Positions 15,920 through 42,830 of a stretch of 64,000 nt of DNA are shown in pieces. This DNA is from Hericium rajendrae (taxonomy: Eukaryota > Basidiomycota > Agaricomycetes > Russulales > Hericiaceae). Positions within the stretch are counted from its first letter, which is position 1; the number at the start of each line of letters is the position of its first letter. The notes under the pieces were generated by a model. That model saw only the letters and a program-made list of their open reading frames with translations, did no database searches and was not told where the DNA came from. The stretch is taken from contig CM065884.1 in NCBI GenBank assembly GCA_033439255.1, positions 124,001 to 188,000 on the forward strand, in the 5' to 3' direction. The position numbers and the translations under genes were made by a program.

Positions 15920-17170
15920 CGACAGCTGGCGCGCCGTCGTCGGGGTGCTGTCTCGGAAGTCGAAGGGCGACAGCAGACGAATGCTAGATAGCTCGGGAGT
16001 AGCTGTCGCTACAGGATGACTGCAGAGCCTCTTTATACTATGAGGTGGAGCTCTGTCCCACACAATAAGACAAAAGAGACAACAAAGCGAAAGGAAAAAA
16101 GAAAGCGAAAGAAAAATAACACAAGGATAGCAAGAACAAAGTGTTGAAGAGGCGCGCTTGTTCGAGTGAGGTGATGGGCACGATCGAGAGGCGACTGAGA
16201 GCGGAGTGATCGTAAGGTGCATCTAGATGGACAAAAAGATAAGAAGATAGAGGGCAGGGAGAGATGAAGAAAAAATGAGCAAAAGATTAGTTTACCAATC
16301 GAAACGAGGCGGGCGTGCGCGTGAGGAGTCGGAGAACACGAAAAGATCTTGACCGAAAGCGTGTCAGTATCATTATGCGTCACAATGCATTGCCTTGCCT
16401 CACATGGACGTTTACATGCGACGAGGTGCAGTATACCTATGGGGCATCCGACACCGTCATTGGTAAGGAGAAGAGCAACTTGGTAAAAAATTTTAAAACA
16501 AACGACGACGCAGATGAAGTTGCATCACGTGAAAGCGGAAAAGGTTGCCGATAGGCAAAGTGGAAGGAAATTGGCGGATATCACACCAAAAGGACCCATT
16601 TCAGCTGAATAACAGCGAAGATATTCGAGGGGTTTCTCCTAGTTTGAGGGATTCTCCTAGTCTCCGCAGCTGACCTCAGCAAGATAGCAGACTGTAGATG
16701 AGATCTCTGAGATTCAGACTACATGCGGAAGGAACGCGGTCAAGTGACTCTGACAGTGAGGCCTTGAGGGCCTCCGACTCAATGACGCGACCGTGTCGCC
16801 GAAAACTACGAAGGCCTTTGCCTTCTGTTCCTTCGATATTGCAATCAGGGTCCGTGCGCCGTTCTGACAGTGTAAGGCGAGCCCTTGCAACGCTCTTCAC
16901 ATGTCAAGGTTTTCATTTCGTGGCTTGAATAATCACAACCGTCACAGCGGCGACTTCGAGCCCATTCATCGCCTAGCGCATATATCAGCATTCTTGCAGG
17001 GCTTTGCTCCTTCCATCCCCTTCTTTCTCTGTTCCTTCTGTCCACCCGGACTCCCCATCGCGACACGAACGCTTTCTCCCCCTGCTCGCCCCGCCCTCCT
17101 CGTTCGACGAAGATACCGCCCTCCCTCCACATTTGTGTCTGGCAAGTAGCAGCAATCCGCGTCGAGTAGG
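15920..17170. other. intergenic, purine/pyrimidine-biased
   Basis: Upstream of the previous gene there is a strongly strand-biased A/G-rich tract (about 16060-16290), as in many fungal promoters. No gene is recognised up to the tandem repeat at 17171. Confidence 0.45.
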
Positions 17171-17690
17171 TGAGCATTTGATATCATAGGCCTCGGCCTG
17201 CGTCACACACACACGCGTCCTCAATATGGTGTCGGGCACGGCATCGATTGAGGGCCGTGAGGCGGGCTTCCTGGCCAGGGCCTGGTTTATGATATTCTAA
17301 AATTTGTTGCTTACGGCTTGCCTGCCGTGTTTGTTGCAGGCTGGAATAGTGGAGGCAGGTCGCGTTAAGTAGGTGAGCATTTGATATCGTGGGCCCCGGC
17401 TTGCGTCGCGCACACACGCGTCCTCAATATGGTGTCGGGCACGGCGTCGATTGAGGGCCGTGAGGCGGGCTTCCTGGCTGGGGCCTACCCTATGGCGTTC
17501 TGAAGCTTGTCGCTTATGGTTTGCCTGCCGTGTTTATTGCAGGCTGGAATAGTGGAAGCAGGGCGCGTTAAGTAGGTAAGTGTTTGATATCGTGGGCCCG
17601 GCTTGCGTCGCACGCACACGCGTCCTCAATATGGTGTCGGGCACGGCGTCGATTGAGGGCCGTGAGGCGGGCTTCCTGGCCGGGGCCCTT
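17171..17690 (+). repeat. 203-bp tandem repeat, two full and one partial copy
   Basis: Copies start at 17171, 17374 and 17577, an exact 203-bp period. Each begins with a splice-donor-like GTGAGC or GTAAGT, contains CACACGCGTCCTCAATATGG and GATTGAGGGCCGTGAGGCGG, and ends with a pyrimidine-rich TTGCAG acceptor followed by a 34-bp block (GCTGGAATAGTGG...) up to the next donor. Copies differ by scattered substitutions. The unit therefore looks like a duplicated intron plus mini-exon lying just upstream of the dioxygenase gene. Confidence 0.85.
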
Positions 17691-23265: not shown

Positions 23266-23269
23266 ACGG
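23266..23269. repeat. target-site duplication of LTR element 1, left copy
   Basis: ACGG directly left of the LTR matches ACGG at 26270-26273 directly right of the other LTR. Confidence 0.7.
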
Positions 23270-23441
23270 TGGAGTGGGCCCAGGGGACTCTAGCTATGCC
23301 CCAAAGGAATGCAGATGAATGCTGATGACAACCTAGCTACTGTGACATGCTACAGACATGGGCTATGCTGACTAAGCCCTCGGCTAACCACTGCTGCTGA
23401 CCCAACCTCTGGAGGGTGGGAGACCTCGTCTCCCCACTCCA
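23270..23441 (-). repeat. 3' LTR of element 1
   Basis: 172 bp, one mismatch to the copy at 26098-26269. It carries the last codons and the stop of the element ORF. Confidence 0.9.
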
Positions 23442-25804
23442 TGTGCCCCCCTCCAACATGGCGATGTCCGCATCGCCTCTGAAACCTGATCGGATGAAAA
23501 TGACGAGTGAACCCACCCAAGACCCTGCAAGACACGAGCGAGCTCAGAAAGATGGGGATCTCTCTCCCAATCAAGGTCAGAAACCCGATACGCTGTTGAA
23601 GAACCATGCTGTGTAGGCTGTGTTGGTGACCGCCAAGAAGATGCAGCAGAGGGCAGTGGTCGCGCTCGTCGGGGCTTCAATAATGGAGTGCGGTGTCGTT
23701 GCGAACGTTGAACTCGTCGTTGGATTGATCCGAATGGCTGCAAAATTGAATCTGACCGTAATGCGGAGAAGTCGCGGGCTGGCATAGAACATAGGGGCAG
23801 GACCGGAATAGTTGGAAGAGAGTTGGCATCGTCAGCCCAGGAGAATGGTGCGGGTGAGAGTGCGGTAGGGATGGGTTCCATCTTGGGCACCTTCTGCACG
23901 GCAGATTCGATATGGACGGATGGAGTAGTTTGCGCAGCTAAGTCGGTACAGACAGGGTGATGCCGTTCGCCCATCCGAGCCGCAGAGTCGGCAAGAGTGC
24001 GGACACGGGCAGGTAGCGTGTCGGTCTGGACGTGGATGGAGCAGCGCACGATGCGACGTACCTCTGCGCGTTCGAGTTCGCGCCCGATCTTCACCCCTGC
24101 AAACTTACCCTCATCGAATCCATGCTCGCGGCCTTCTATCGTACCAACCTTCCTTCCTGTGGCAGTGCCTTCCTGCAAACCCACATTCCATCCTTCCTTC
24201 AAGCCCGCGGCATGGCCATCAGACAGCACCGTCACCACAATCTCCTTCAGGTGCGTGGGGTCGAGCAGGGCGGGGTCAGGATCCTCGATGAATGGCATGG
24301 CAGCCGCGTAGAGTGGTAACGTCTGCACAGCAGCGTCGGCGCGTAGGGCTGGTAGGGACTCGGAGATCCGGACGGCGGCATCGATGTACGTGCAGACGGG
24401 CCGGTTGTCGGTCTGGACGTGAACGGAGGGCCGCGCAATGCGACGTACCTCGACGCGCTCGAGTACGTGCCCTGCTTGCACACCTGCGGACTTCCCGTCC
24501 TCGAACCCGCGCTCTCGACCCTCCATTATACCCATCTTTCGCCCTGCCTCTAAGCCCTCGCTATATCCCGCTTCTCGGCCTTCTTTCCTCCCCATGGTCA
24601 TCCCTGCTTCCAGACCTTCCTCCCAGACTCCGTACTCCGCTTCCTTGCGTACGCGCGCGAGTAGATCGGTGTCGATCTCGTCGATCGACGTGGCGAGGGA
24701 TGCGGGGGTGCTCGCCTCGGGGCTGCCCTGCTTGGTGCTCTCATTCGAGTCCTCCTCGCGACGCGCGCTCTGTCCTGCCTTTGTGCGTGCCGCCAACCCC
24801 TCACGAAAGCCCGAATTTCGCCCCGCCTTCAGACCCGCCTCATAGCCCTTCTGAATCGCGGTTGCCACGATGTCGTTATGGAGCGCGCGATTGACAAAGG
24901 CGGGCTCGGGCACTGGTGGTTCGTACGCAGCGGCCATACGGGGCTCTCCCAGTTCGATTCCGGGCGTCGGCGGTCTCGAGACGTTGTGCGTGGGCGCGGA
25001 GACGTCATGAAAGGCGGTGGGGAGTGCGTGCTGCACGAGGTACGGGACGTGGGGCATGGGGCGTGCATGCAGGGCGTGCGGGTCGTCCTCGTGGGCTCCA
25101 ACGAGTCCTCCTGACTCGTTCTCGGCGGCGCGGAGATGCGTGGTGCTACTGGGACTCGCGAGTACGTGGTGCGGGGTTGCCGTTCGGATGTGCGGCGCGG
25201 GAGAGGCGGTAGGGGGCGCGAAGTGCGTGTGCTGCACCGAGCTGGTCCCGCGGAGTGCGGGTGGTATGTACTCACCGTGCACGCCATCCAAGCCCTCTCT
25301 GCGGGCCCCGTCCTTGTTCTCAATCTCGTTTCCGGCGGCGCGCGGGGGTACGATATCGCCTGGTGCCACGGGCACGTCGTAAGGTGTCGGGGCATCCGTG
25401 TTCGACGTGGGAGAAGCAGTATGGGGCGTCTGGCGCGCGTTGGGGCTGCACGGTTCACGCGGTTCGTCCGTGGTGGCTGCGTGGTGTGCGTATGGCTCGA
25501 CTGCTACTGCGGGCGGGCGTACGACGTCGGCTTGGGCTGCGGGTATGCCATGGGTGGTCTCGGTGGTCGTGTGCAGCGCGATAGACAGGGCTGGATGTGC
25601 GGGACATGCGGTACGTGCGTGCGAGTCGTTTGGCTGCTGTGTAAGCGCCGTGGGTGGCTCGTTCGCGGTGTTTGGGCCTGGCGGATCGGCGAATGCAACA
25701 GTGGCGACGAGCGGGGCCGCAAGGCTCGTGATGGTGGGCAGGGGGAGTGATGCTGCTGTTGCTGCTCTCCAAGCAGCTGTGGTAGCGCACTTCTTCTTGC
25801 CCAT
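23384..25804 (-). CDS. Element-encoded protein with G-x-x-x-G repeat blocks (806 aa)
   Basis: Sole ORF of LTR element 1, homologous to the ORF of element 2. The start at 25804 is supported by element 2, where the same context (ATATGGGC around the ATG) and protein start occur (MGKKKCATTAAWRAA against MGKNKRAAKAAWRAA). Regions: a basic/Ala N-terminus (1-25); a long Ala/Pro/Thr/His-rich, probably disordered region with repeated AAxNExG motifs (to about 300); three blocks of G-x-x-x-G/E-G repeats (e.g. YEAGLKAGRNSGFREGL; YSEGLEAGRKMGIMEG; AAGLKEGWNVGLQEG), the last two each followed by ER-x-EVRRI and S(I/V)HVQTD; then FSWADDANSLP, a DFSALRS/FGSIQRR basic region and RVLQGLGWVHSS. The G-x-x-x-G blocks recall the FliH stalk, which forms packed helices. 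The ORF reads through the polypurine tract into the LTR and stops at 23384. It could be a divergent Gag or a captured host gene; no domain proves either. Confidence 0.75.
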   Translation of the reverse strand: MGKKKCATTAAWRAATAASLPLPTITSLAAPLVATVAFADPPGPNTANEPPTALTQQPNDSHARTACPAHPALSIALHTTTETTHGIPAAQADVVRPPAVAVEPYAHHAATTDEPREPCSPNARQTPHTASPTSNTDAPTPYDVPVAPGDIVPPRAAGNEIENKDGARREGLDGVHGEYIPPALRGTSSVQHTHFAPPTASPAPHIRTATPHHVLASPSSTTHLRAAENESGGLVGAHEDDPHALHARPMPHVPYLVQHALPTAFHDVSAPTHNVSRPPTPGIELGEPRMAAAYEPPVPEPAFVNRALHNDIVATAIQKGYEAGLKAGRNSGFREGLAARTKAGQSARREEDSNESTKQGSPEASTPASLATSIDEIDTDLLARVRKEAEYGVWEEGLEAGMTMGRKEGREAGYSEGLEAGRKMGIMEGRERGFEDGKSAGVQAGHVLERVEVRRIARPSVHVQTDNRPVCTYIDAAVRISESLPALRADAAVQTLPLYAAAMPFIEDPDPALLDPTHLKEIVVTVLSDGHAAGLKEGWNVGLQEGTATGRKVGTIEGREHGFDEGKFAGVKIGRELERAEVRRIVRCSIHVQTDTLPARVRTLADSAARMGERHHPVCTDLAAQTTPSVHIESAVQKVPKMEPIPTALSPAPFSWADDANSLPTIPVLPLCSMPARDFSALRSDSILQPFGSIQRRVQRSQRHRTPLLKPRRARPLPSAASSWRSPTQPTQHGSSTAYRVSDLDWERDPHLSELARVLQGLGWVHSSFSSDQVSEAMRTSPCWRGAHGVGRRGLPPSRGWVSSSG
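23446..23454 (-). other. polypurine tract of element 1
   Basis: GGAGGGGGG on the minus strand, immediately upstream of the 3' LTR in element orientation; the position and composition are those of a plus-strand primer. The same tract occurs at 39678-39686 in element 2. Confidence 0.7.
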
Positions 25805-26070
25805 ATCGGGTAATTCGACTTGGTTCGAATCGAAAGTTCGAGCGTTGGATGTTCGCGGCGTAGATCACGAAACGAGGATGCTGGGGAGCACCGAAGAGTA
25901 CTAGAAGAACGTGATAAGAGCAGACAAATGATGGGTGAACACTTAGAGCACAGAAGATCACTGTGGAAGCACGACACGAGCGCGCAACGGAACACGAGGC
26001 GTGACGAGAGACGACAAGAGCTCGAAAAGACACAAAAAAAAGGACAGGGAGAGCAGTGCAGTGCAGCGTA

Positions 26071-26095
26071 TGTCGAACTCACACTCTCATCACCA
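26071..26095 (-). other. tRNA-like primer-binding site of element 1
   Basis: The plus strand reads ...TCGAACTCACACTCTC then ATCACCA, i.e. the look of a tRNA 3' end: T-loop, T-stem strand, acceptor strand and CCA. On the element strand this is TGGTGATGAGAG..., a primer-binding site two bases after the 5' LTR. Element 2 has the same 12-base core ending in CCA. The tRNA is not identified; the acceptor strand would start GATGAG. Confidence 0.65.
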
Positions 26096-26097
26096 GG

Positions 26098-26269
26098 TGG
26101 AGTGGGCCCAGGGGACTCTAGCTATGCCCCGAAGGAATGCAGATGAATGCTGATGACAACCTAGCTACTGTGACATGCTACAGACATGGGCTATGCTGAC
26201 TAAGCCCTCGGCTAACCACTGCTGCTGACCCAACCTCTGGAGGGTGGGAGACCTCGTCTCCCCACTCCA
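26098..26269 (-). repeat. 5' LTR of element 1
   Basis: 172 bp direct repeat of 23270-23441, TG...CA ends. Presumed to hold the promoter and RNA start of the element. Confidence 0.9.
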
Positions 26270-26450
26270 ACGGTTCATCCACCAAGTTATCCTCGTCGTC
26301 GAGCGGGTTCTGTAAGGTATTGTAGATAACTTTCTGGACAGCCCTGACGGAGCAACAGTGCATCTCAGCAAGCTCAGTCATTAATATGCCGGCTCGAAAT
26401 TGGCATCGTATGACAGCATGCTCCGAGCGATCTATACCACGATACGGAGA

Positions 26451-28374: not shown

Positions 28375-28899
28375 ATGTCGTACGTCGGGGGTTTGTTTAT
28401 GAACAGAGCACGATTTACTGTTACTCGGCATTGCAGCGCTGTCGCTCGGCGTGTCATCACTCGCTCCGAGCGGGCTGTTCTTCGGTTCAAGTGGCGCGGC
28501 GGCAAAAGCATGAATTCCCTTGCAGATCAGCATCTATGCTCTATTCGGACTGTTCGCAGAGCAGTCGAGAATCTCTCTTGGGACGATTTAACTGAAGACA
28601 ATATTCACGTCCAGCAATGGAAAGCCGACAACATCGACGACAAGTATCTGGTCGCAGGTCTGGAGTCCATCAACATTGTTGATATGCAACATGATAATCC
28701 TATCGTGAACAACGTGCAGGCCGAAGGCGATGGTAAGCAATCATCTCTAGCCATCGAATCTGGTGTTGAAAGCGTCGTATTTCATTTGCATGCTCATATT
28801 CTTGCAACAGACCATGATCATCATGGCGAGCGCTGCACATGAAACAGTCACTTAGTGCATTGAGGGAATGCCAGGCGAGCTTGACAAAGTGCCATTGTT

Positions 28900-29965
28900 G
28901 ATTGGCCATCCTGCGCTGGCCCGTCCGTCACAATGTAGCAGTCATCCAATGACAGGCCTGCCCTTCCTATGTACCAATGGGTCATTGTCCGGCCTCTAGT
29001 CATTTAATCTGTAGTGTCCATTCATCATTGACCGGCCTGTCCTCTGATGTCCATTGGATCATTGGCTGGCCCACTTGATCCCACGGGATATCAGTTGCTC
29101 GGCCCGTCCTCTACCATCCATTGGGTCATCGACGGGCCTGTCCCCTTATAATGTCTACTGGTCATTCATCATTGATGGGCCCATCCTCTGATGTCCGATG
29201 GGTCATTGGCTGGCCCTCTCGATCCCGTGGGATATCAGTTGCTCGGCCTGTCCTCTACCGTCCATTGGGTCATTAGCTGGCCCATCTCCTTATAATGTCT
29301 ACTGGTCATTCATCATTGACCGGCCTGTCCTCTGACATCCATTGGATCATTGGCTGGCCCACTTGATCCCGCGGGATATCAGTTGCTCGGCCCGTCCTCT
29401 ACCGTCCATTGGGTCATTAGCTGGCCCATCCCCTTATAATGTCTACTGGTCATTCATCATTGACGGGCCTGTCCTCTGATGTCCAATGGGTCATTGGCTG
29501 GCCCTCTCAATCCCGCGGAATGTCAATTGCTCAGCCGGTTCTCTACCATCCATTGGGTCATCGACGGGCCTGTCCCCTTATAATGTCTACTGGTCATTCA
29601 TCATTGACGGGCCCATCATCTGATGTCCGATGGGTCATTGGCTGGCCCTCTCGATCCCGCGGGATATCAGTTGCTCGGCCCATCCTCTACCATCCATTGG
29701 ATCATTGACAGGCCCATCCTCTTACAATTTCTACTGGTCATTGGGTCATTGGCTGGCCCATCCTCTTACAATACCACTGCATATTCATCATTGACTGGCC
29801 CGTCCTCTGACATCCAATGGGTCATTGGCTGGCCTGTCCTTTAACAATGTCTACTGTACATTCATCATTGACGGGCCCATTCTCCACTGTCTAATGGGTC
29901 ATTGGCTGGTCCACTTGATCCTACAGGTTGTCAATTGCTCGGCCCATCCTCTACTGTCCAATGAG
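28900..29965 (+). repeat. outer repeat zone of left arm
   Basis: About seven to eight units of roughly 140 bp built on phrases such as GGTCATTGGCTGGCCC, TCATCATTGACGGGCC and CCTTATAATGTCTACTGG. Mirrored at 33755-34820 on the other arm. Confidence 0.8.
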
Positions 29966-29969
29966 ATGT

Positions 29970-31540
29970 TATTGGATCTCATGGAATCCTGCCAGACTCT
30001 ATCTTAGATGTTTTCAGATCCCATGTGATCCCACAGGATTCTGTTTTAGACATTTTCAGATCCCATGAGATCCTGTGGGATTCTATCTTAGACATTTTTG
30101 AATCCCATGAAATTCTCCAGGATTCTGTTTTAGACATTTTTGGATCCCATGGAATCTTGCAGGATTCTGTTTTAAACATTTTTGAGAATCCCGCGGGATT
30201 CTCTTTTGGACATTTTTGGATCCCATGGGATCCCATGGGATTTTGTTTTAGACATTTTCAGGGATCCCGTGGGATTCTGTCTTAGACATTTTCTGACTGC
30301 ATGAAATCCCGCAGGATTTTGTTTTAAACATTTTTAGAGATCCCGCAAGATTCTGTTTTGGACATTTTTGGATCCCATGGGATCCCATGAGATTTTGTTT
30401 TAGACATTTTTAGGGATCCCGCAGAAATTTGTCTTAGACATTTTCTGACTGCATGAAATCCCACGGGATTCAGTTTTAGACATTTTCGGAGATCCCGTGG
30501 GATTCTGTCTTAGTAGACATTTTCTAACCACATGAAATCCCACGAGATTTTGTTTTAGACATTTTTAGGGATCCCACGGGATTCTGTCTTAGACATTTTC
30601 TGACTGCATGAAATCTCGCGGGATTCAGTTTTAGACATTTTCGGAGATCCCGTGGGATTCTGTCTTAGTAGACATTTTCTAACCACATGAAATCCCACGA
30701 GATTTTGTTTTAGACATTTTTAGGGATCCCACGGGATTCTGTCTTAGACATTTTCTGACTGCATGAAATCCTGCGGGATTCAGTTTTAGACATTTTCGGA
30801 GATCCTGCGGGATTCTGTCTTAGTAGACATTTTCTAACCACATGAAATCCCACGAGATTTTGTTTTAGACATTTTTAGGGATCCCACGGGATTCTGTCTT
30901 AGACATTTTCTGACTGCATGAAATCTCGCGGGATTCAGTTTTAGACATTTTCGGAGATCCCGCGGGATTCTGTCTTAGTAGACATTTTCTAACCACATGA
31001 AATCCCACGGGATTCTGTCTTAGACATTTTCTGACTGCATGAAATCCCACGGGATTCAGTTTTAGACATTTTCAGAGATCCCGCAGGATTCTGTCTTAGT
31101 AGACATTTTCTAACCACATGAAATCCCACGCAATTCTGTCTTAGACATTTTCAGGTATCTCGTAGGATTCTATCTTAGACATTTTTCGACCACATGAAAT
31201 TCTGCGGAATTCTGTTTTAGATGTTTTCAGATCTCATAGGATCTTGTGAGATTCTGTTTTAGACATTTTTAGATCCCATGAGATTCTGTCTTAGATATTT
31301 TCAGATCACATGAAATCTCACAGACTCTGTCTTAGACATTTTTGGATCCCATAAAATCTTGTCTTAGATGCTTTTAAATTTCATAGGATCAAATTATATG
31401 AGATGTTGTTTTAGACACTTTCAAATCCTATCATGGGATATTACAGGATTCTGTTTTGGATAATCTTGTGAAATCTCATCTTAGACACTTTTGGATCTTA
31501 TGGAATTCTGTAGAATTCTGTTCTATAGACTTTTGCTTCT
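29970..31540 (+). repeat. inner repeat zone of left arm
   Basis: More than thirty copies of a roughly 47-50 bp unit, GATCCCnnGGGATTCTG followed by TTTTAGACATTTTC. Units become degenerate and AT-rich toward the centre. The mirrored zone is about 32400-33750. Confidence 0.85.
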
Positions 31541-31543
31541 CAC

Positions 31544-31660
31544 ATTAGCAAACATGGTCATTTTTCTGACTCATTGACAGTGGTCTGACTCATCTGAAAG
31601 TAGTCTGACTTATGCAAATCAGACCATTGTCAGTGAGTCAGAAAAATGGTCATCTTTGCC
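31544..31660. repeat. internal stem-loop near the fold-back centre
   Basis: About 48 bp (from GCAAACATGGTCATTTTTCT to TGGTCTGAC) are repeated in reverse complement at 31612-31660, separated by about 20 bp. This hairpin is not mirrored on the right side, so it is independent of the main inverted repeat and may be a nested miniature element. Confidence 0.7.
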
Positions 31661-32400
31661 TATCTCAGATATATTTATCTAGAAATTCAATCTGAGATAC
31701 CAGAATAGCAAAGTAACAAGTGATATGTAAAAATAGTGATATGTGTCTTGAAGTGTAGTACAATGTCATCTGAGTGGTAAACAAGTGGTCTGACTGTCAT
31801 AGCTGTCCTGGCTCACTTGCAAACTGCAAAATACTGGATAAAATGCTTTGTGTAAAACAAAAATTTGTAAATATCTCAGTTAGTTCTGATCCAATTGATA
31901 TAAAAATGTTACTATATGAAAGGTCCTGAAAAACCTGCATCTAATCCAATATATTGCTAAATATATTCTCCAATTGAACCATAAAAAACTGCAATATACT
32001 GATTTGTACAATTTTTAAGTATAATATTTGTATCATGACCTCAACCAGTCCTTATATAACTTAATGCATGTTACCTTCAATTAGATATTAAGAAATCATC
32101 TATCAAAGAGTGCATATAGTTGTTTAAGCACACATTTTCATATTTGGCAGTTAATATAAATAAAAAAAGTGTTACATTTGAATTCAGCTCACAAAATGAA
32201 GCAAATGTATATAGATATATTGTATAGTTAAGTACTAAACTTGGCATAATTGCTTATAGAACAATTTGGATGTCACATCTAAGCATAGCTTGAGATTCTT
32301 GGATAATTGCCAAATTGATAAATTACCATTGGATCTCATGAGATGACACTAAATCAGCATTTTGCAAAATATCATGGTAACTCAGGTGAAACCTTATAAA
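31660..32400. other. AT-rich centre of the fold-back element
   Basis: No arm symmetry, no repeats of the arm type and no coding frame. The loop of the hairpin. Confidence 0.6.
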
Positions 32401-35400
32401 TTTCAAAAGTATCTAAGACAAAATCCTACAAGACTTGATCTCATGAAATCCAAAAGCATCTAAGTCAAGATTTTATAAAATACAAAAAATATCTAACATA
32501 GAGTCCTACAAGATCCTATGAATCTGAAAACATCTAAAACATAATCTTGCAGAATTTTATGTAGTCTGAAAATGTCTAAAACTGAATTCCGTGGGATTTC
32601 ATGTGGTTAGAAAATGTCTACTAAGACAGAATCCCGTGGGATCTCCGAAAATGTCTAAAACTGAATCTCGCGAGATTTCATGCAGTCAGAAAATGTCTAA
32701 GACAGAATCCCGTGGGATTTCATGTGGTTAGAAAATGTCTACTAAGACAGAATCCCGCGGGATCTCCGAAAATGTCTAAAACTGAATCCCGCGAGATTTC
32801 ATGCAGTCAGAAAATGTCTAAGACAGAATCCCGTGGGATCCCTAAAAATGTCTAAAACAAAATCTCGTGGGATTTCATGTGGTTAGAAAATGTCTACTAA
32901 GACAGAATCCCGCAGGATCTCCGAAAATGTCTAAAACTGAATCCCGCAGGATTTCATGCAGTCAGAAAATGTCTAAGACAGAATCCCGTGGGATCCCTAA
33001 AAATGTCTAAAACAAAATCTCGTGGGATTTCATGTGGTTAGAAAATGTCTACTAAGACAGAATCCCACGGGATCTCCGAAAATGTCTAAAACTGAATCCC
33101 GCGAGATTTCATGCAGTCAGAAAATGTCTAAGACAGAATCCCGTGGGATCCCTAAAAATGTCTAAAACAAAATCTCGTGGGATTTCATGTGGTTAGAAAA
33201 TGTCTACTAAGACAGAATCCCACGGGATCTCCGAAAATGTCTAAAACTGAATCCCGTGGGATTTCATGCAGTCAGAAAATGTCTAAGACAAATTTCTGCG
33301 GGATCCCTAAAAATGTCTAAAACAAAATCTCATGGGATCCCATGGGATCCAAAAATGTCCAAAACAGAATCTTGCGGGATCTCTAAAAATGTTTAAAACA
33401 AAATCCTGCGGGATTTCATGCAGTCAGAAAATGTCTAAGACAGAATCCCACGGGATCCCTGAAAATGTCTAAAACAAAATCCCATGGGATCCCATGGGAT
33501 CCAAAAATGTCCAAAAGAGAATCCCGCGGGATTCTCAAAAATGTTTAAAACAGAATCCTGCAAGATTCCATGGGATCCAAAAATGTCTAAAACAGAATCC
33601 TGGAGAATTTCATGGGATTCAAAAATGTCTAAGATAGAATCCCACAGGATCTCATGGGATCTGAAAATGTCTAAAACAGAATCCTGTGGGATCACATGGG
33701 ATCTGAAAACATCTAAGATAGAGTCTGGCAGGATTCCATGAGATCCAATAACATCTCATTGGACAGTAGAGGATGGGCCGAGCAATTGACAACCTGTAGG
33801 ATCAAGTGGACCAGCCAATGACCCATTAGACAGTGGAGAATGGGCCCGTCAATGATGAATGTACAGTAGACATTGTTAAAGGACAGGCCAGCCAATGACC
33901 CATTGGATGTCAGAGGACGGGCCAGTCAATGATGAATATGCAGTGGTATTGTAAGAGGATGGGCCAGCCAATGACCCAATGACCAGTAGAAATTGTAAGA
34001 GGATGGGCCTGTCAATGATCCAATGGATGGTAGAGGATGGGCCGAGCAACTGATATCCCGCGGGATCGAGAGGGCCAGCCAATGACCCATCGGACATCAG
34101 ATGATGGGCCCGTCAATGATGAATGACCAGTAGACATTATAAGGGGACAGGCCCGTCGATGACCCAATGGATGGTAGAGAACCGGCTGAGCAATTGACAT
34201 TCCGCGGGATTGAGAGGGCCAGCCAATGACCCATTGGACATCAGAGGACAGGCCCGTCAATGATGAATGACCAGTAGACATTATAAGGGGATGGGCCAGC
34301 TAATGACCCAATGGACGGTAGAGGACGGGCCGAGCAACTGATATCCCGCGGGATCAAGTGGGCCAGCCAATGATCCAATGGATGTCAGAGGACAGGCCGG
34401 TCAATGATGAATGACCAGTAGACATTATAAGGAGATGGGCCAGCTAATGACCCAATGGACGGTAGAGGACAGGCCGAGCAACTGATATCCCACGGGATCG
34501 AGAGGGCCAGCCAATGACCCATCGGACATCAGAGGATGGGCCCATCAATGAATGACCAGTAGACATTATAAGGGGACAGGCCCGTCGATGACCCAATGGA
34601 TGGTAGAGGACGGGCCGAGCAACTGATATCCCGTGGGATCAAGTGGGCCAGCCAATGATCCAATGGACATCAGAGGACAGGCCGGTCAATGATGAATGGA
34701 CACTACAGATTAAATGACTAGAGGCCGGACAATGACCCATTGGTACATAGGAAGGGCAGGCCTGTCATTGGATGACTGCTACATTGTGACGGACGGGCCA
34801 GCGCAGGATGGCCAATCAACAATGGCACTTTGTCAAGCTCGCCTGGCATTCCCTCAATGCACTAAGTGACTGAACATACTCAGCGCTGGAACCTCAATAC
34901 CGTCGAATTCGTCGAATTCATCGAGTTCCTGCGCAGCATCAACATGCACGGCATAGAACATGTTCTTCGGTGCTTTAAGAAGCTGGGTATTCGGTCCATC
35001 AGCGATATCAATTTTCTGAAGGGATTGGGGGAGCATGAAAAGAGGGATGTAGAGGAGGCGTTGATCCACGTGGGATTCACCCAGTCCGAATGTCTGACTT
35101 TGTTGAATGCCCCGTAGCTTACATCTGGGGTACCTACCATCGTCGACACCTGTATCTGAATCTAGACTCGCGTTATCAGTTGTATAAGGATTCGGATGCT
35201 TGATCATAATGTCTCTATGAGAGCTCGGCTTGACGGTCATGAAGTTGCATCGCTTTCAGGTCAGGTCAGGCCGAGCTTCACGTCAGCTGTAGCTTGCGGC
35301 AACATTGATATTGAAGAATCAACAAGAGATGGAGTCCGATGACAGAACGACAGGACCATACGACTGTCACAGTGCACTACAATCAAAGATATATAAATTG

Positions 35401-39505: not shown

Positions 39506-39509
39506 ACGT

Positions 39510-39673
39510 TGGAGCAGGCCAAAGGGACACGACGCAAGCCCTGGGATAGTGGCAGGATGGGGAATGTGCTACCACATGCTGACTCTGATCTAGCTCTATG
39601 CTGACTAAGCCTCTGCCTCTAGCGGTGCTATCACATGATCTATGCCTCTCAGACCCCCTGATCTCCCACTCCA
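39510..39673 (-). repeat. 3' LTR of element 2
   Basis: 164 bp, no difference seen against 42325-42488. Confidence 0.9.
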
Positions 39674-39677
39674 TCGT

Positions 39678-39686
39678 CCCCCCCTC
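39678..39686 (-). other. polypurine tract of element 2
   Basis: GAGGGGGGG on the element strand, directly before the 3' LTR, matching the tract of element 1. Confidence 0.7.
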
Positions 39687-39724
39687 AAACATGGCGACGC
39701 CCTCGTCGCCTCAAAAAAAAGACC

Positions 39725-42025
39725 TCAACCAGAAGACTCATGAACCCAGCCCAGACTCTGCAAAACTCTACTCAGCTCAACCAAACGTGGATCTCCATCC
39801 CAACTCAGAGGTGAAAGTGGCACAGCAAAACCAGAAGATGAACTCGAAACCTGCATGATAGATGGCCGACCTGCACGAAGGCCAGCTGGATGACGACGAG
39901 TGATCACCGGTGCTGATAGAAAAGCGGGACGTGGTGGACGCAGATCAGCACGATGAGAACGACGAGCACGTCGCTGCAATGACCCAAATGGTGACCTCGA
40001 AGATGAACGTAGAACCGAGAAGTCACGGGGAGGCGGTAGTGGAAGCACCGAATGGATGGGGAGGGAATCAGCTTCGTCAGCCCAGGAAAAGGATGCGGGA
40101 GGTGGAATGTTGGCAGACGGGGAGCAGGTTTGCATGTGAGCATCCACCTGCAAGATAGTTAATGGCATCGTAGTCTCTGTCTGAGCATCAGCCTGTTCAG
40201 GCCTCCGATCCTGCCGCCTACGAGATTCCTCCTCACAGCCTTTCGCAAATCCCACCGACTGAGCTGACTCGAGCTCCTTGTCTGACAGTGCAAACCCATG
40301 CTCGAAACCTGAATTGTAAGCAGTAAAACGAATTTCACGCAATAGCTGCTCGTCGATAGCGTCAATAGACAAGACGCACGGTGCGGCAGCAAGAGGAGGA
40401 TGCAGAATGGGGGATGTGATGCAGGTGTCCTGGCTTGCCTCGAGTCGACTCCGCTTCAGTCCTTCCTGTAGCCCTTCCTCACGGCCTTCTGCCCTGCCTG
40501 TCTTCTTCCCGGCCTCAAGACCTTCGCGGAATCCCGTGTTCCGGCCCTCCTTCAAACTCGCCGCGTGGCCATCGCGCAATGCCGTCGCTACAATCTCCTT
40601 GAGGTACGCGGGATTGAGAAGCTCGCCGTCGGGCTCTTCGAACAATAGCGCGGCGGCTGCATGGGCCCTTCCCGGTTCGAATCCGGGCGCCGGTGTTTTC
40701 GAGTCGCTGAGCGTGGATGCAGGGACGCCGGGCACGATCGCGATGAGCGTGCGGGACGTGGGGAGCGCGTTCGTACCGCGCGTGCCGTGCATGTCACCTG
40801 GCCGAGCTCCAGCCAGGGCAAGGTCGTTCGCCGCGGTATGTGGGTGTGGGGGGCTTCGGGGCGTCTTAGTCGGGTCGCGCGGAGTCGTGGTGTGTGGGCC
40901 CGCGGCTTCTTCGTGTGGTCCGTACGCGGCGGCTTCATGGGGCTCTCCTGGTTCGAATCCGGGCGTCGGCAGTTGTTGCTTGGTGCGCACTAGTGCATGG
41001 ACGTCGTGAGGGATGGGCTGGGGAGCGCGCTGCGCAGATGGTGGGACGTGGATCTCGGTACGTGCATGCGGGCCGTGTACGTCGTCGTCGCGGGCTTTAC
41101 CGCGGCTTCGCGGCTCGTCTGTGGTCGTGGTTGCGTGCGTGGTGCTGCTAGGTGGTACGGACCGTGCTCGCGGGTGGGGCACGCCAGCCGTGCGGGCCCC
41201 GGCCAGTACTGCTGACTCGTTCACGGCGGCGCGCGGGCGTATGGTGCTCGGAGGCGGCGTAGGCGAGGCGCGTGGGGTCGCGGCTTGTGTGCGCAATGCA
41301 GGAAGGGCGGGGGTGCATACCGGTTGTGGGTTTCCGCCGTGCGCGTCCCGCGCGGTCCGCATCTCCTCCTCGCGTGACCCGGAGCCCTCCTCCGACTTGT
41401 TCTCCGCGGCTTGAGGACGTATGGCGCGTTGGGGCGGCGTACGCGGATCATGCGGGGTCGCGGTAGGCAAGCGGGACGCGGCAGAGGACGCGTGGGGTCG
41501 CATAGGCGCGTGCGTGCTGCCTGCATCGTGCGTCGTATCCGCGGGCTCCTTCGCGGAGGTTCTCATGCTCCTAAATACGCGGGATTGCGCGGGTACGTTG
41601 TGGGTGGTCGCGATGTCCGTGTGGGACGCGGGAAGGGTGGTGGGAGGCGCGGGGTGCGTGGTCGCGCTGCGGACCTCGCGCGAGTCGCGTTTGTTGGCCG
41701 CGGGTGGTCGCTCTGGCTCTCGTGCGATCGCGAATGGCGGCTGGGTGTGGCTGTGTGGTGTGGCTGCTGTATCCAAGTTTGCTGAGGCGGTATGCGGTGC
41801 GAACGAGGAGGTGCGAGGTGCGAGACTCGCATTCTGTGCGTGCATGTCGCGCGGCTGCTGCGTAGGCGCTGGTGATGGCTCGTTCGCGGCGTTTGTGCCT
41901 AGCGTGTCGACGTGGGTGACGGTGGCGACGAGCGGGTGCCCGGCGTTCGTGGTTGTGGGCAATGGGCCTGCTGCTCTTGCTGCTGCTCTCCAAGCAGCTT
42001 TCGCTGCGCGCTTGTTCTTGCCCAT
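39725..42025 (-). CDS. Element-encoded protein with G-x-x-x-G repeats (766 aa)
   Basis: Sole ORF of LTR element 2. The start at 42025 is chosen because the protein from here (MGKNKRAAKAAWRAAARAAG) matches the start in element 1; the frame stays open upstream to an ATG at 42280, which would add 85 less conserved residues from the leader. The N-terminal half is Ala/Pro/Thr/His-rich with many recurring units like RAAENKSEEGS and GFEPGEPHEAAA, about every 70-80 residues. There is one long G-x-x-x-G/E-G block (GFREGLEAGKKTGRAEGREE), and after it LLREIRFTAYNSGFEHGF. The C-terminus holds FSWADEADSLPIHSVLPL, DFSVLRSSSRSPFGSLQRR and RVLQSLGWVHESSG, then a stop at 39725 before the polypurine tract. Compared with element 1 it has one block instead of three and does not run into the LTR. 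No catalytic motif. Confidence 0.75.
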   Translation of the reverse strand: MGKNKRAAKAAWRAAARAAGPLPTTTNAGHPLVATVTHVDTLGTNAANEPSPAPTQQPRDMHAQNASLAPRTSSFAPHTASANLDTAATPHSHTQPPFAIAREPERPPAANKRDSREVRSATTHPAPPTTLPASHTDIATTHNVPAQSRVFRSMRTSAKEPADTTHDAGSTHAPMRPHASSAASRLPTATPHDPRTPPQRAIRPQAAENKSEEGSGSREEEMRTARDAHGGNPQPVCTPALPALRTQAATPRASPTPPPSTIRPRAAVNESAVLAGARTAGVPHPRARSVPPSSTTHATTTTDEPRSRGKARDDDVHGPHARTEIHVPPSAQRAPQPIPHDVHALVRTKQQLPTPGFEPGEPHEAAAYGPHEEAAGPHTTTPRDPTKTPRSPPHPHTAANDLALAGARPGDMHGTRGTNALPTSRTLIAIVPGVPASTLSDSKTPAPGFEPGRAHAAAALLFEEPDGELLNPAYLKEIVATALRDGHAASLKEGRNTGFREGLEAGKKTGRAEGREEGLQEGLKRSRLEASQDTCITSPILHPPLAAAPCVLSIDAIDEQLLREIRFTAYNSGFEHGFALSDKELESAQSVGFAKGCEEESRRRQDRRPEQADAQTETTMPLTILQVDAHMQTCSPSANIPPPASFSWADEADSLPIHSVLPLPPPRDFSVLRSSSRSPFGSLQRRARRSHRADLRPPRPAFLSAPVITRRHPAGLRAGRPSIMQVSSSSSGFAVPLSPLSWDGDPRLVELSRVLQSLGWVHESSG

Positions 42026-42295: not shown

Positions 42296-42321
42296 GTGGG
42301 TCGAATCCGCTCTCATCACCA
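42296..42321 (-). other. tRNA-like primer-binding site of element 2
   Basis: The plus strand GTGGGTCGAATCCGCTCTC then ATCACCA looks like a tRNA T-arm and acceptor end with CCA. The element strand starts TGGTGATGAGAG, the same 12-base core as in element 1. Confidence 0.7.
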
Positions 42322-42324
42322 CGA

Positions 42325-42488
42325 TGGAGCAGGCCAAAGGGACACGACGCAAGCCCTGGGATAGTGGCAGGATGGGGAATGTGCTACCACATGCTGACTC
42401 TGATCTAGCTCTATGCTGACTAAGCCTCTGCCTCTAGCGGTGCTATCACATGATCTATGCCTCTCAGACCCCCTGATCTCCCACTCCA
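42325..42488 (-). repeat. 5' LTR of element 2
   Basis: 164 bp, direct repeat of 39510-39673. Confidence 0.9.
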
Positions 42489-42830
42489 ACGTGCAGAAAG
42501 CAGGGTTATGGGAGTTCCAGAGCCCAATTTTCATAACGTCTCTCACGAGCTATACACAGATCAAATGATAGAAAGATTCACTGGCATTTCGAAAACAGAG
42601 GGCACATATGACGAGAAATGGAGAGTTAGAAAGTACCGAACAAGGTGAGGTATGATAAAATTGGAGAAAAGCAGACGCAGATAGTGAAGGTAAATTGGGG
42701 GAAAGATTCCGGTGAGACTTGTGACCAAACGAAATAGTAAGGTGCGATGGTCCAGCTACGTGCTAGCACTAGTAGACAGGCTGGATTGAGTACACGGAAG
42801 TGATAGATCGAGAACGATGAATAGCTCACC

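Follow-up and report, generated by a model that had tools for sequence, protein, structure and literature searches.

Single-ORF LTR elements with a deca-GX3 protein in Hericium rajendrae, probable satellites of Ty3/Gypsy retrotransposons

Why would a retrotransposon that encodes neither a reverse transcriptase (RT) nor an integrase keep a long open reading frame (ORF)? The question is raised by two insertions, elements 1 and 2, in a 64,000-nt stretch of the Hericium rajendrae genome (the window; bases 124001-188000 of contig C7, in a genome of 46.8 Mb on 19 contigs). Both have the makings of a non-autonomous long terminal repeat (LTR) element, namely paired LTRs with TG...CA ends, a target-site duplication, a primer-binding site (PBS) and a polypurine tract (PPT), with no RT or integrase. 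From comparison with related sequences in the same genome, we infer that they are satellite LTR retrotransposons of the Ty3/Gypsy type, probably mobilised in trans.

Anatomy, copies and selection

Element 1 lies on the minus strand, with 172-bp LTRs at 23270-23441 (3´) and 26098-26269 (5´) that differ at one position in 172 bp, have a 9-bp terminal inverted repeat (TGGAGTGGG/CCCACTCCA) and are flanked by ACGG (CCGT in element orientation; 23266-23269 and 26270-26273). The PBS, TGGTGATGAGAGTG (26082-26095), is complementary over 14 nt, including CCA, to the 3´ end of a genomic tRNA, a putative tRNA-Leu, and the PPT, GGAGGGGGGCACA, occupies 23442-23454. An initial annotation of the window had described the LTRs with their ends and duplication, the tRNA-like PBS and the PPT, all of which we confirmed. 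The single ORF (806 aa, 23384-25804) crosses the PPT and extends 58 bp into the 3´ LTR, while the conserved protein stops near ...LGWV. Element 2, also on the minus strand, has 164-bp LTRs without mismatch (3´ LTR 39510-39673, 5´ LTR 42325-42488) between copies of ACGT (39506-39509 and 42489-42492), four bases on each side having inflated the repeat to 172 bp. Its PPT, GAGGGGGGGACGA, is at 39674-39686, its PBS, TGGTGATGAGAG, at 42310-42321 (12 nt complementary to the same putative tRNA-Leu 3´ end), and its ORF, counted from the conserved ATG, encodes 766 aa with 8 consecutive GX3 glycines (39725-42025). The initial annotation took the two for insertions of one design. Both are indeed single-ORF GX3 LTR elements, but the LTRs share only similar ends and one 16-bp matching stretch and the ORFs are ~40% identical, so we assign them, by sequence, to two families within one larger group.

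The LTR pairs are not chance repeats, as LTR1 is matched 23 times and LTR2 31 times in the genome (window copies counted; full elements and solo LTRs). A genome search with the element 1 protein gave 95 matches, grouped manually into at least 33 loci, fragments among them; these counts are lower bounds, two elements found through their LTRs (L074 and L076) having been missed. The ORF is thus multi-copy and mobile, which bears out the proposed non-autonomous LTR family whose one ORF is not a Gag and does not fit a single-copy host gene flanked by chance repeats. At 16 further loci, grouped separately from the 33, the best match was confined to ORF1 residues 331-423. One of these was read and holds a 430-bp piece of GX3 ORF within another dispersed repeat (L078 2310-2741, ~75-79% identity); the 16 look like the same piece. 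A relict GX3 ORF also lies next to a short tandem repeat at C4:1093400-1094000 (L087).

The full GX3 elements that we read number 17, made up of both window elements, 14 picked by LTR likeness to LTR1 or LTR2, and L081. Their LTR pairs differ by 0-2 bases (~100 nt compared for L068 and L076) and the insertions are therefore recent, with the qualification that choosing elements by LTR similarity biases the sample toward young copies. The ORF runs uninterrupted from the N-terminal to the C-terminal motif in 12 of the 17, and is broken in L062, L066, L067, L068 and L069. With the four most broken elements excluded, 13 members were aligned.

In protein-guided alignments of 20 pairs, the ratio of nonsynonymous to synonymous change (dN/dS, Nei-Gojobori) was 0.27-0.55. 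Since a protein-guided filter favours conserved protein, the test was repeated on DNA-only alignments of 15 pairs, where the corresponding ratio of proportions (pN/pS) was 0.32-0.55 in the coding frame compared to 0.84-1.76 in the two wrong frames. Low pN/pS is specific to the coding frame, and the ORF is a real gene under purifying selection.

Likely Ty3/Gypsy partners and shared termini

A search for autonomous partners, which the initial annotation had suggested, identified likely RT- and integrase-bearing relatives for both elements. For element 2, the best case is an element of about 7.0 kb on contig C2 (L077), with a 633-aa Gag-type ORF, whose CCHC motif was seen by eye and falls under the Pfam cut-off (E 0.27), and a Pol of 1483 aa in which RT, RNase H and integrase follow in that order (RVT_1 570-717, RNase H 801-935, rve 1139-1236). 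No chromodomain was found in this Pol at E up to 1; the control family considered below (L133) has one. The LTR of L077 is 77-81% identical to LTR2, and its LTR, PBS, leader and PPT region align with those of element 2 at 76-86% over 112-222 columns. By eye, the 50 nt after the LTR show three differences, while the hairpin described below and the PPT are the same. L077 is flanked on both sides by GCGG, as is a second element of this kind on contig C8 (L073), whose LTR is 83% identical to LTR2, whose PBS and leader are identical by eye to element 2 over 35 nt, and whose coding part consists of several separate ORFs. Relatives of the integrase at 50% identity or more occur at 17 genome places, two of them short pieces.

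For element 1, the exact PBS and leader sequence was found at 12 genome places (the reversed pattern at none), nine of which are LTR1 elements. At two of the other three, a partner-type integrase follows 5.4 kb downstream; on C17, where the third lies, none is nearby among the integrase relatives found. These two loci (C10:1978522-1985585 and C3:1650893-1657848) each have LTR pairs identical over 175 bp, and their duplications are ACGT and ACGG. Their LTRs both start TGGAGTGGGG and end CTCCA, and both loci carry the hairpin GGCGACGCGGACGTCGCC and a PPT ending GGGGGCACA, the PPT end as in element 1. LTR termini, PBS and PPT are thus shared within this genome by element 2 with L077 and L073. Element 1 has PBS, leader, hairpin and PPT in common with the C10 and C3 loci, and its LTR end with C10, and autonomous Ty3/Gypsy partners likely exist for both elements.

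Ends in common with autonomous elements are also what simple deletion derivatives of a Gypsy element, left with a chance ORF, would show. We regard this explanation as highly improbable: blastn of six satellites against L077, L073 and the C10 ends revealed no trace of gag or pol from the leader to the PPT region, and frame-specific selection contradicts it. Nor did we see the ORF serve as the plain Gag of an RT- and integrase-bearing copy, the one partner Gag compared, that of L077, being unrelated to it.

Three other loci were considered and set aside. L068 (8.8 kb) was rejected as an autonomous copy because nested within it is an element that has 821-bp LTRs and a Gag-like ORF, and L062 (4.8 kb) because its ORFs of at least 150 aa include no Gag or Pol. 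L081 (C4:258300-264000) was rejected as a fusion of GX3 protein and Pol; here a GX3 satellite is inserted inside the pol gene of a partner-type element, and so disrupts a likely helper. By eye, a similar 5´ junction lies inside an RT-like frame in L084 (C13). A solo LTR of the element 2 type, in reverse orientation and flanked by ATGT, was found near the 3´ end of the C10 element (L089, C10:1985153-1985319).

The tRNA 3´ end complementary to the PBS is present at three genome places. By eye, from one copy (L079), the gene looks like an intron-bearing tRNA-Leu(AAG); ARAGORN made no tRNA call in L079 or L080, for which the intron is the probable cause. Self-priming was rejected in favour of tRNA-Leu, as the longest piece of PBS complement was 6 nt in LTR1 and 5 nt in LTR2. 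A tRNA-derived sequence within the ORF, considered on account of a recurrent PGFEPG peptide, was likewise rejected, an Rfam scan of 22000-43500 having returned no tRNA.

In both window elements a 7-bp hairpin stands 5 to 6 nt upstream of the PPT (GGCGATG-CGGA-CATCGCC at 23460-23477 in element 1 and GGCGACG-AGGG-CGTCGCC at 39693-39710 in element 2, both on the minus strand). We aligned 14 distinct sequences representing 20 elements, three rows being from autonomous elements only and one common to L076 and L077. Across these non-autonomous and autonomous elements, 95.9% of cells were paired and four of the seven pairs showed compensatory change. On four of five measures none of 500 shuffles scored as high, and controls slid along the alignment were at most 64% paired. 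The hairpin may have a role in plus-strand priming or in RNA recognition.

CpG-centred integration

Both window elements have CG at the centre of their 4-bp duplication. The events scored on both flanks, these two among them, number 31 (17 satellites, 10 solo LTRs and 4 autonomous elements). The central two bases were CG on both flanks in 26 and on one flank in three, with CA/TG on both flanks in the remaining two; the two copies of the duplication were identical in 26 of the 31. Against a CG share of 6.1% among window dinucleotides, the chance of 29 or more in 31, each event counted once, is about 2e-33. At neighbouring offsets, CG was seen in 0-4 of the 31 events. Eleven events with one flank, outside this count, gave CG at the centre in eight and TG/CA in three by our own reading.

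The element nested in L068 (3412-8616; C12:1291028-1296232) is a second, different non-autonomous kind, with one 686-aa Gag-like ORF (CCHC by eye; Pfam E 0.38) and no Pol-sized ORF listed. The copy within L068 has GCGG on both sides. Of 182 candidate matches to its 821-bp LTR, 40 were scored; among 20 sites fetched, all 15 intact duplications read NCGN, and the other five were non-identical, three of these being explained by an internal end. A second control was the chromodomain Gypsy family, in which the centre was CG in only 2 of 20 right flanks (right flanks only). The CpG preference is therefore not common to all LTR elements in this genome, and we infer that a group of integrases confers it. 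A weaker trend has been reported from 12 plant genomes, where 4-bp duplications are GC-rich at mid-site (PMC6911290, in the passages available). The available part of a paper on Marasmius oreades transposons gives no duplication sequences (PMC9674265).

The window holds three further features of note. A near-perfect inverted repeat of ~6 kb (28845-34872) has arms of ~2.3 kb, 100% complementary over long stretches and made up of 144-bp and 155/76/42-bp tandem arrays, around an AT-rich spacer of 1.4 kb. A 558-aa ORF on the minus strand (910-2586) matches Transposase_21 (tnp2), and tandem copies spaced 202-203 bp and 85-96% alike, without a long ORF, occupy 17145-17687.

The deca-GX3 protein and its known counterparts

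What, then, does the ORF encode? Four features are conserved across the 13 aligned ORFs: a basic N-terminus, mostly MGKNKRAAKAAWRAAA (MGKKKCATTAAWRAATA in element 1, 25754-25804); a deca-GX3 array; and two C-terminal motifs, which in element 1 are FSWADDAxSLP...RDFSxLRS...PFGSxQRR (residues 654-701, 23702-23845) and LxWxxDPxLxELxRVLxxLGWV (residues 744-767, 23504-23575), all on the minus strand. The second motif, WxxDPxLxELxRVLxxLGWV, is absent in the broken copy L066. The element 1 array (24470-24616, minus strand) has 13 glycines at a spacing of four over residues 397-445. Runs of 8-13 consecutive glycines at this spacing occur in 12 of the 13 ORFs, the exception being L081 with four; chains in shuffled proteins reached at most five (300 whole-protein shuffles per ORF). 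At E up to 1, matches to Pfam Yae1_N were obtained for 12 of the 13 ORFs (lowest E 2.2e-12). On ORF1 the match covers residues 413-448 (E 5e-10, 39.4 bits against a cut-off of 27.5), while ORF2, at 24.6, falls under the cut-off; genome-wide there are 21 matches at E up to 0.001. An array of about 40 residues with glycines at spacing four, the trait of the Yae1/Lto1 family, is thus present in these ORFs. This motif has been reported as unique to Yae1 and Lto1 among eukaryotes, where it mediates their pairing (PMC4523923, 2015, in its available passages).

The initial annotation had noted no Gag knuckle, protease, RT or integrase in the 806-codon ORF. Indeed, no Gag, protease, RT or integrase was matched by Pfam in the 13 ORFs at E up to 1, and no Gag, knuckle or capsid family was among the matches; the Yae1_N match means, however, that the ORF is not featureless. 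A comparison of the ORF alignment with the L077 Gag by hhalign gave a probability of 0.2% (one partner Gag compared), and with the Pfam result this led us to reject a Gag reading. A related idea is that the ORF is a structural protein, too diverged to recognise, that replaces or supplements Gag in shared particles, making the elements semi-autonomous as in wheat Quinta and Sabrina-SA. The ORF is in the gag position, starting soon after the leader, it is under purifying selection, and its GX3 helices could polymerise. The absence of any Gag family among the Pfam matches and the hhalign result (for that one Gag) speak against the idea, as does a predicted structure that is mostly without fold and of low confidence, and we consider it unlikely.

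Alternatively, the protein could act on the host, its deca-GX3 array binding Yae1/Lto1 and thereby reaching Rli1/ABCE1 and the ribosome recycling or cytosolic iron-sulfur protein assembly (CIA) machinery, so as to favour translation or stability of its own RNA. Such binding would agree with the Yae1_N matches, and Yae1 and Lto1 do bind each other through their deca-GX3 motifs (PMC4523923, in part). Two short GX3 open frames, at C3:2168590 and C8:1009559 (L085 and L086), are read as the host Lto1 and Yae1. Lto1, on the other hand, binds the CIA complex by a C-terminal tryptophan; in the alignment the ORFs end with ...LGWV plus further residues and have no such tryptophan. The Yae1_N match is to a repeat motif and may be convergent. 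We judge host action to be unlikely. The presence of GX3 genes in the host, and of gene capture by LTR elements in general (PMC3726574, in part), also raises the idea of a captured host gene carried as a passenger with no part in mobility. A passenger would be expected to decay, whereas constraint is kept across families ~40% identical, and in the two host GX3 stretches (500-600 bp each) neither C-terminal motif was seen; with roughly half of the 33 loci read, a mere passenger is very unlikely.

We tentatively propose instead, at somewhat short of even odds, that the ORF protein is a cis-preferring adaptor. GX3 helices would drive its self-association, the basic N-terminus would hold the RNA from which the protein was translated, and the conserved C-terminal motifs would dock onto a particle protein of the partner. 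That the ORF is kept intact despite borrowed enzymes is most simply explained if its product acts preferentially on its own RNA, since a copy with a broken ORF would then be packaged less well. Under trans-mobilisation, satellite RNA would start and end within LTRs that were either copied from the autonomous Gypsy elements sharing its genome or evolved together with them, and would be transcribed and packaged in the particle of the partner. There, tRNA-Leu would prime the RNA for reverse transcription by the partner RT and RNase H, and the partner integrase would insert the product at CpG with a 4-bp NCGN duplication.

Several observations weigh against parts of this proposal. LTR1 matches the C10 LTR over the last 23 nt only (87%) and, apart from the terminal bases, shows no match to the C3 LTR at E 1e-3; with LTR bodies unmatched, element 1 is tied to its likely partners by ends, leader, hairpin and PPT, and the coding part of the C10 and C3 loci was read as far as the integrase match. 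The hairpin is missing from L062, which was left out of the alignment, and its fifth measure (further pair types) was not above shuffles (329 of 500). AlphaFold gave a poor model of the ORF product (mean predicted local distance difference test score, pLDDT, 40.6; 32 of 806 residues at 70 or more). Its helices fall in the N-terminal, GX3 and C-terminal motif regions, and a model of this quality neither supports nor refutes GX3 self-association. Searches of solved structures with the ORF returned nothing significant, and no RNA-binding domain was found in it. Finally, the position of the GX3 array varies between ORFs and L081 has only four glycines, so the array may not be essential.

Why a protein is retained when every enzyme is borrowed can be tested with these elements. 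Should the ORF product work on the RNA of its own element, it would provide a non-Gag packaging or translation adaptor to study, and a mobile third deca-GX3 family would bear on the function of the motif, given its reported restriction to Yae1 and Lto1 among eukaryotes (PMC4523923, in the passages available). Because near-absolute CpG-centred integration coexists with a chromodomain Gypsy family that lacks it, both the target choice of the integrase and the link of that choice to CpG methylation are open to direct testing. In its most far-reaching form, which we regard as doubtful, the proposal would have a third eukaryotic deca-GX3 family carried by parasitic retrotransposons, either plugging into the Yae1-Lto1/Rli1 translation machinery or self-assembling on its own RNA, together with Gypsy integrases that serve at least two unrelated LTR families with near-absolute recognition of a CpG centre. 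Among the titles and beginnings of abstracts listed from the open-licence literature, we found no match for a retroelement deca-GX3 protein, apart from the papers on Yae1 and Lto1 themselves, or for CpG-centred LTR integration.

Compared to Yae1 and Lto1, the retroelement protein is several times longer, has other conserved motifs and is without the C-terminal tryptophan. What it has in common with them is the 40-residue stretch with glycine at every fourth position and the Pfam Yae1_N match (PMC4523923, in part). Among mobile elements, the closest parallels are in wheat, as described in the available passages of two papers. RLG_Sabrina_NA, with RLG_Wilma as its likely partner, is a non-autonomous Gypsy element that, as here, shares only key motifs with the partner, its gag-pro region being replaced by other coding segments, some without homology (PMC9744471). 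It differs in its plant host and short proteins, and those passages contain no selection test. RLG_Quinta and RLG_Cereba likewise form a pair defined by identical LTR termini, PBS and PPT, and the ORF of the Quinta satellite is still intact and includes a domain of unknown function; Quinta, however, encodes a clear GAG, which the ORF here does not (PMC11302176). Plant satellites in which the gag region has been replaced are already on record (PMC9744471, PMC11302176), and the suggestion in the initial annotation of a wholly undescribed system was therefore too strong. Unlike Sabrina_NA, the H. rajendrae elements have one long ORF family across several LTR families, a deca-GX3 array and near-strict CpG targeting.

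Plant TR-GAG elements are small LTR elements with a single ORF and no Pol. The ORF here differs in not being a recognisable Gag, by Pfam on the 13 members and by hhalign against the L077 Gag. An element with 821-bp LTRs and only a Gag-like ORF is present in this genome, nested in L068. Large retrotransposon derivatives (LARDs) and terminal-repeat retrotransposons in miniature (TRIMs) are non-autonomous LTR retrotransposons that are non-coding, whereas the present elements code for a protein under selection. LARDs have been reported in Laccaria bicolor (PMC3411680, in part). Our best reading is that the elements are a variant of a known satellite mode, distinguished by the deca-GX3 protein and near-absolute CpG targeting.

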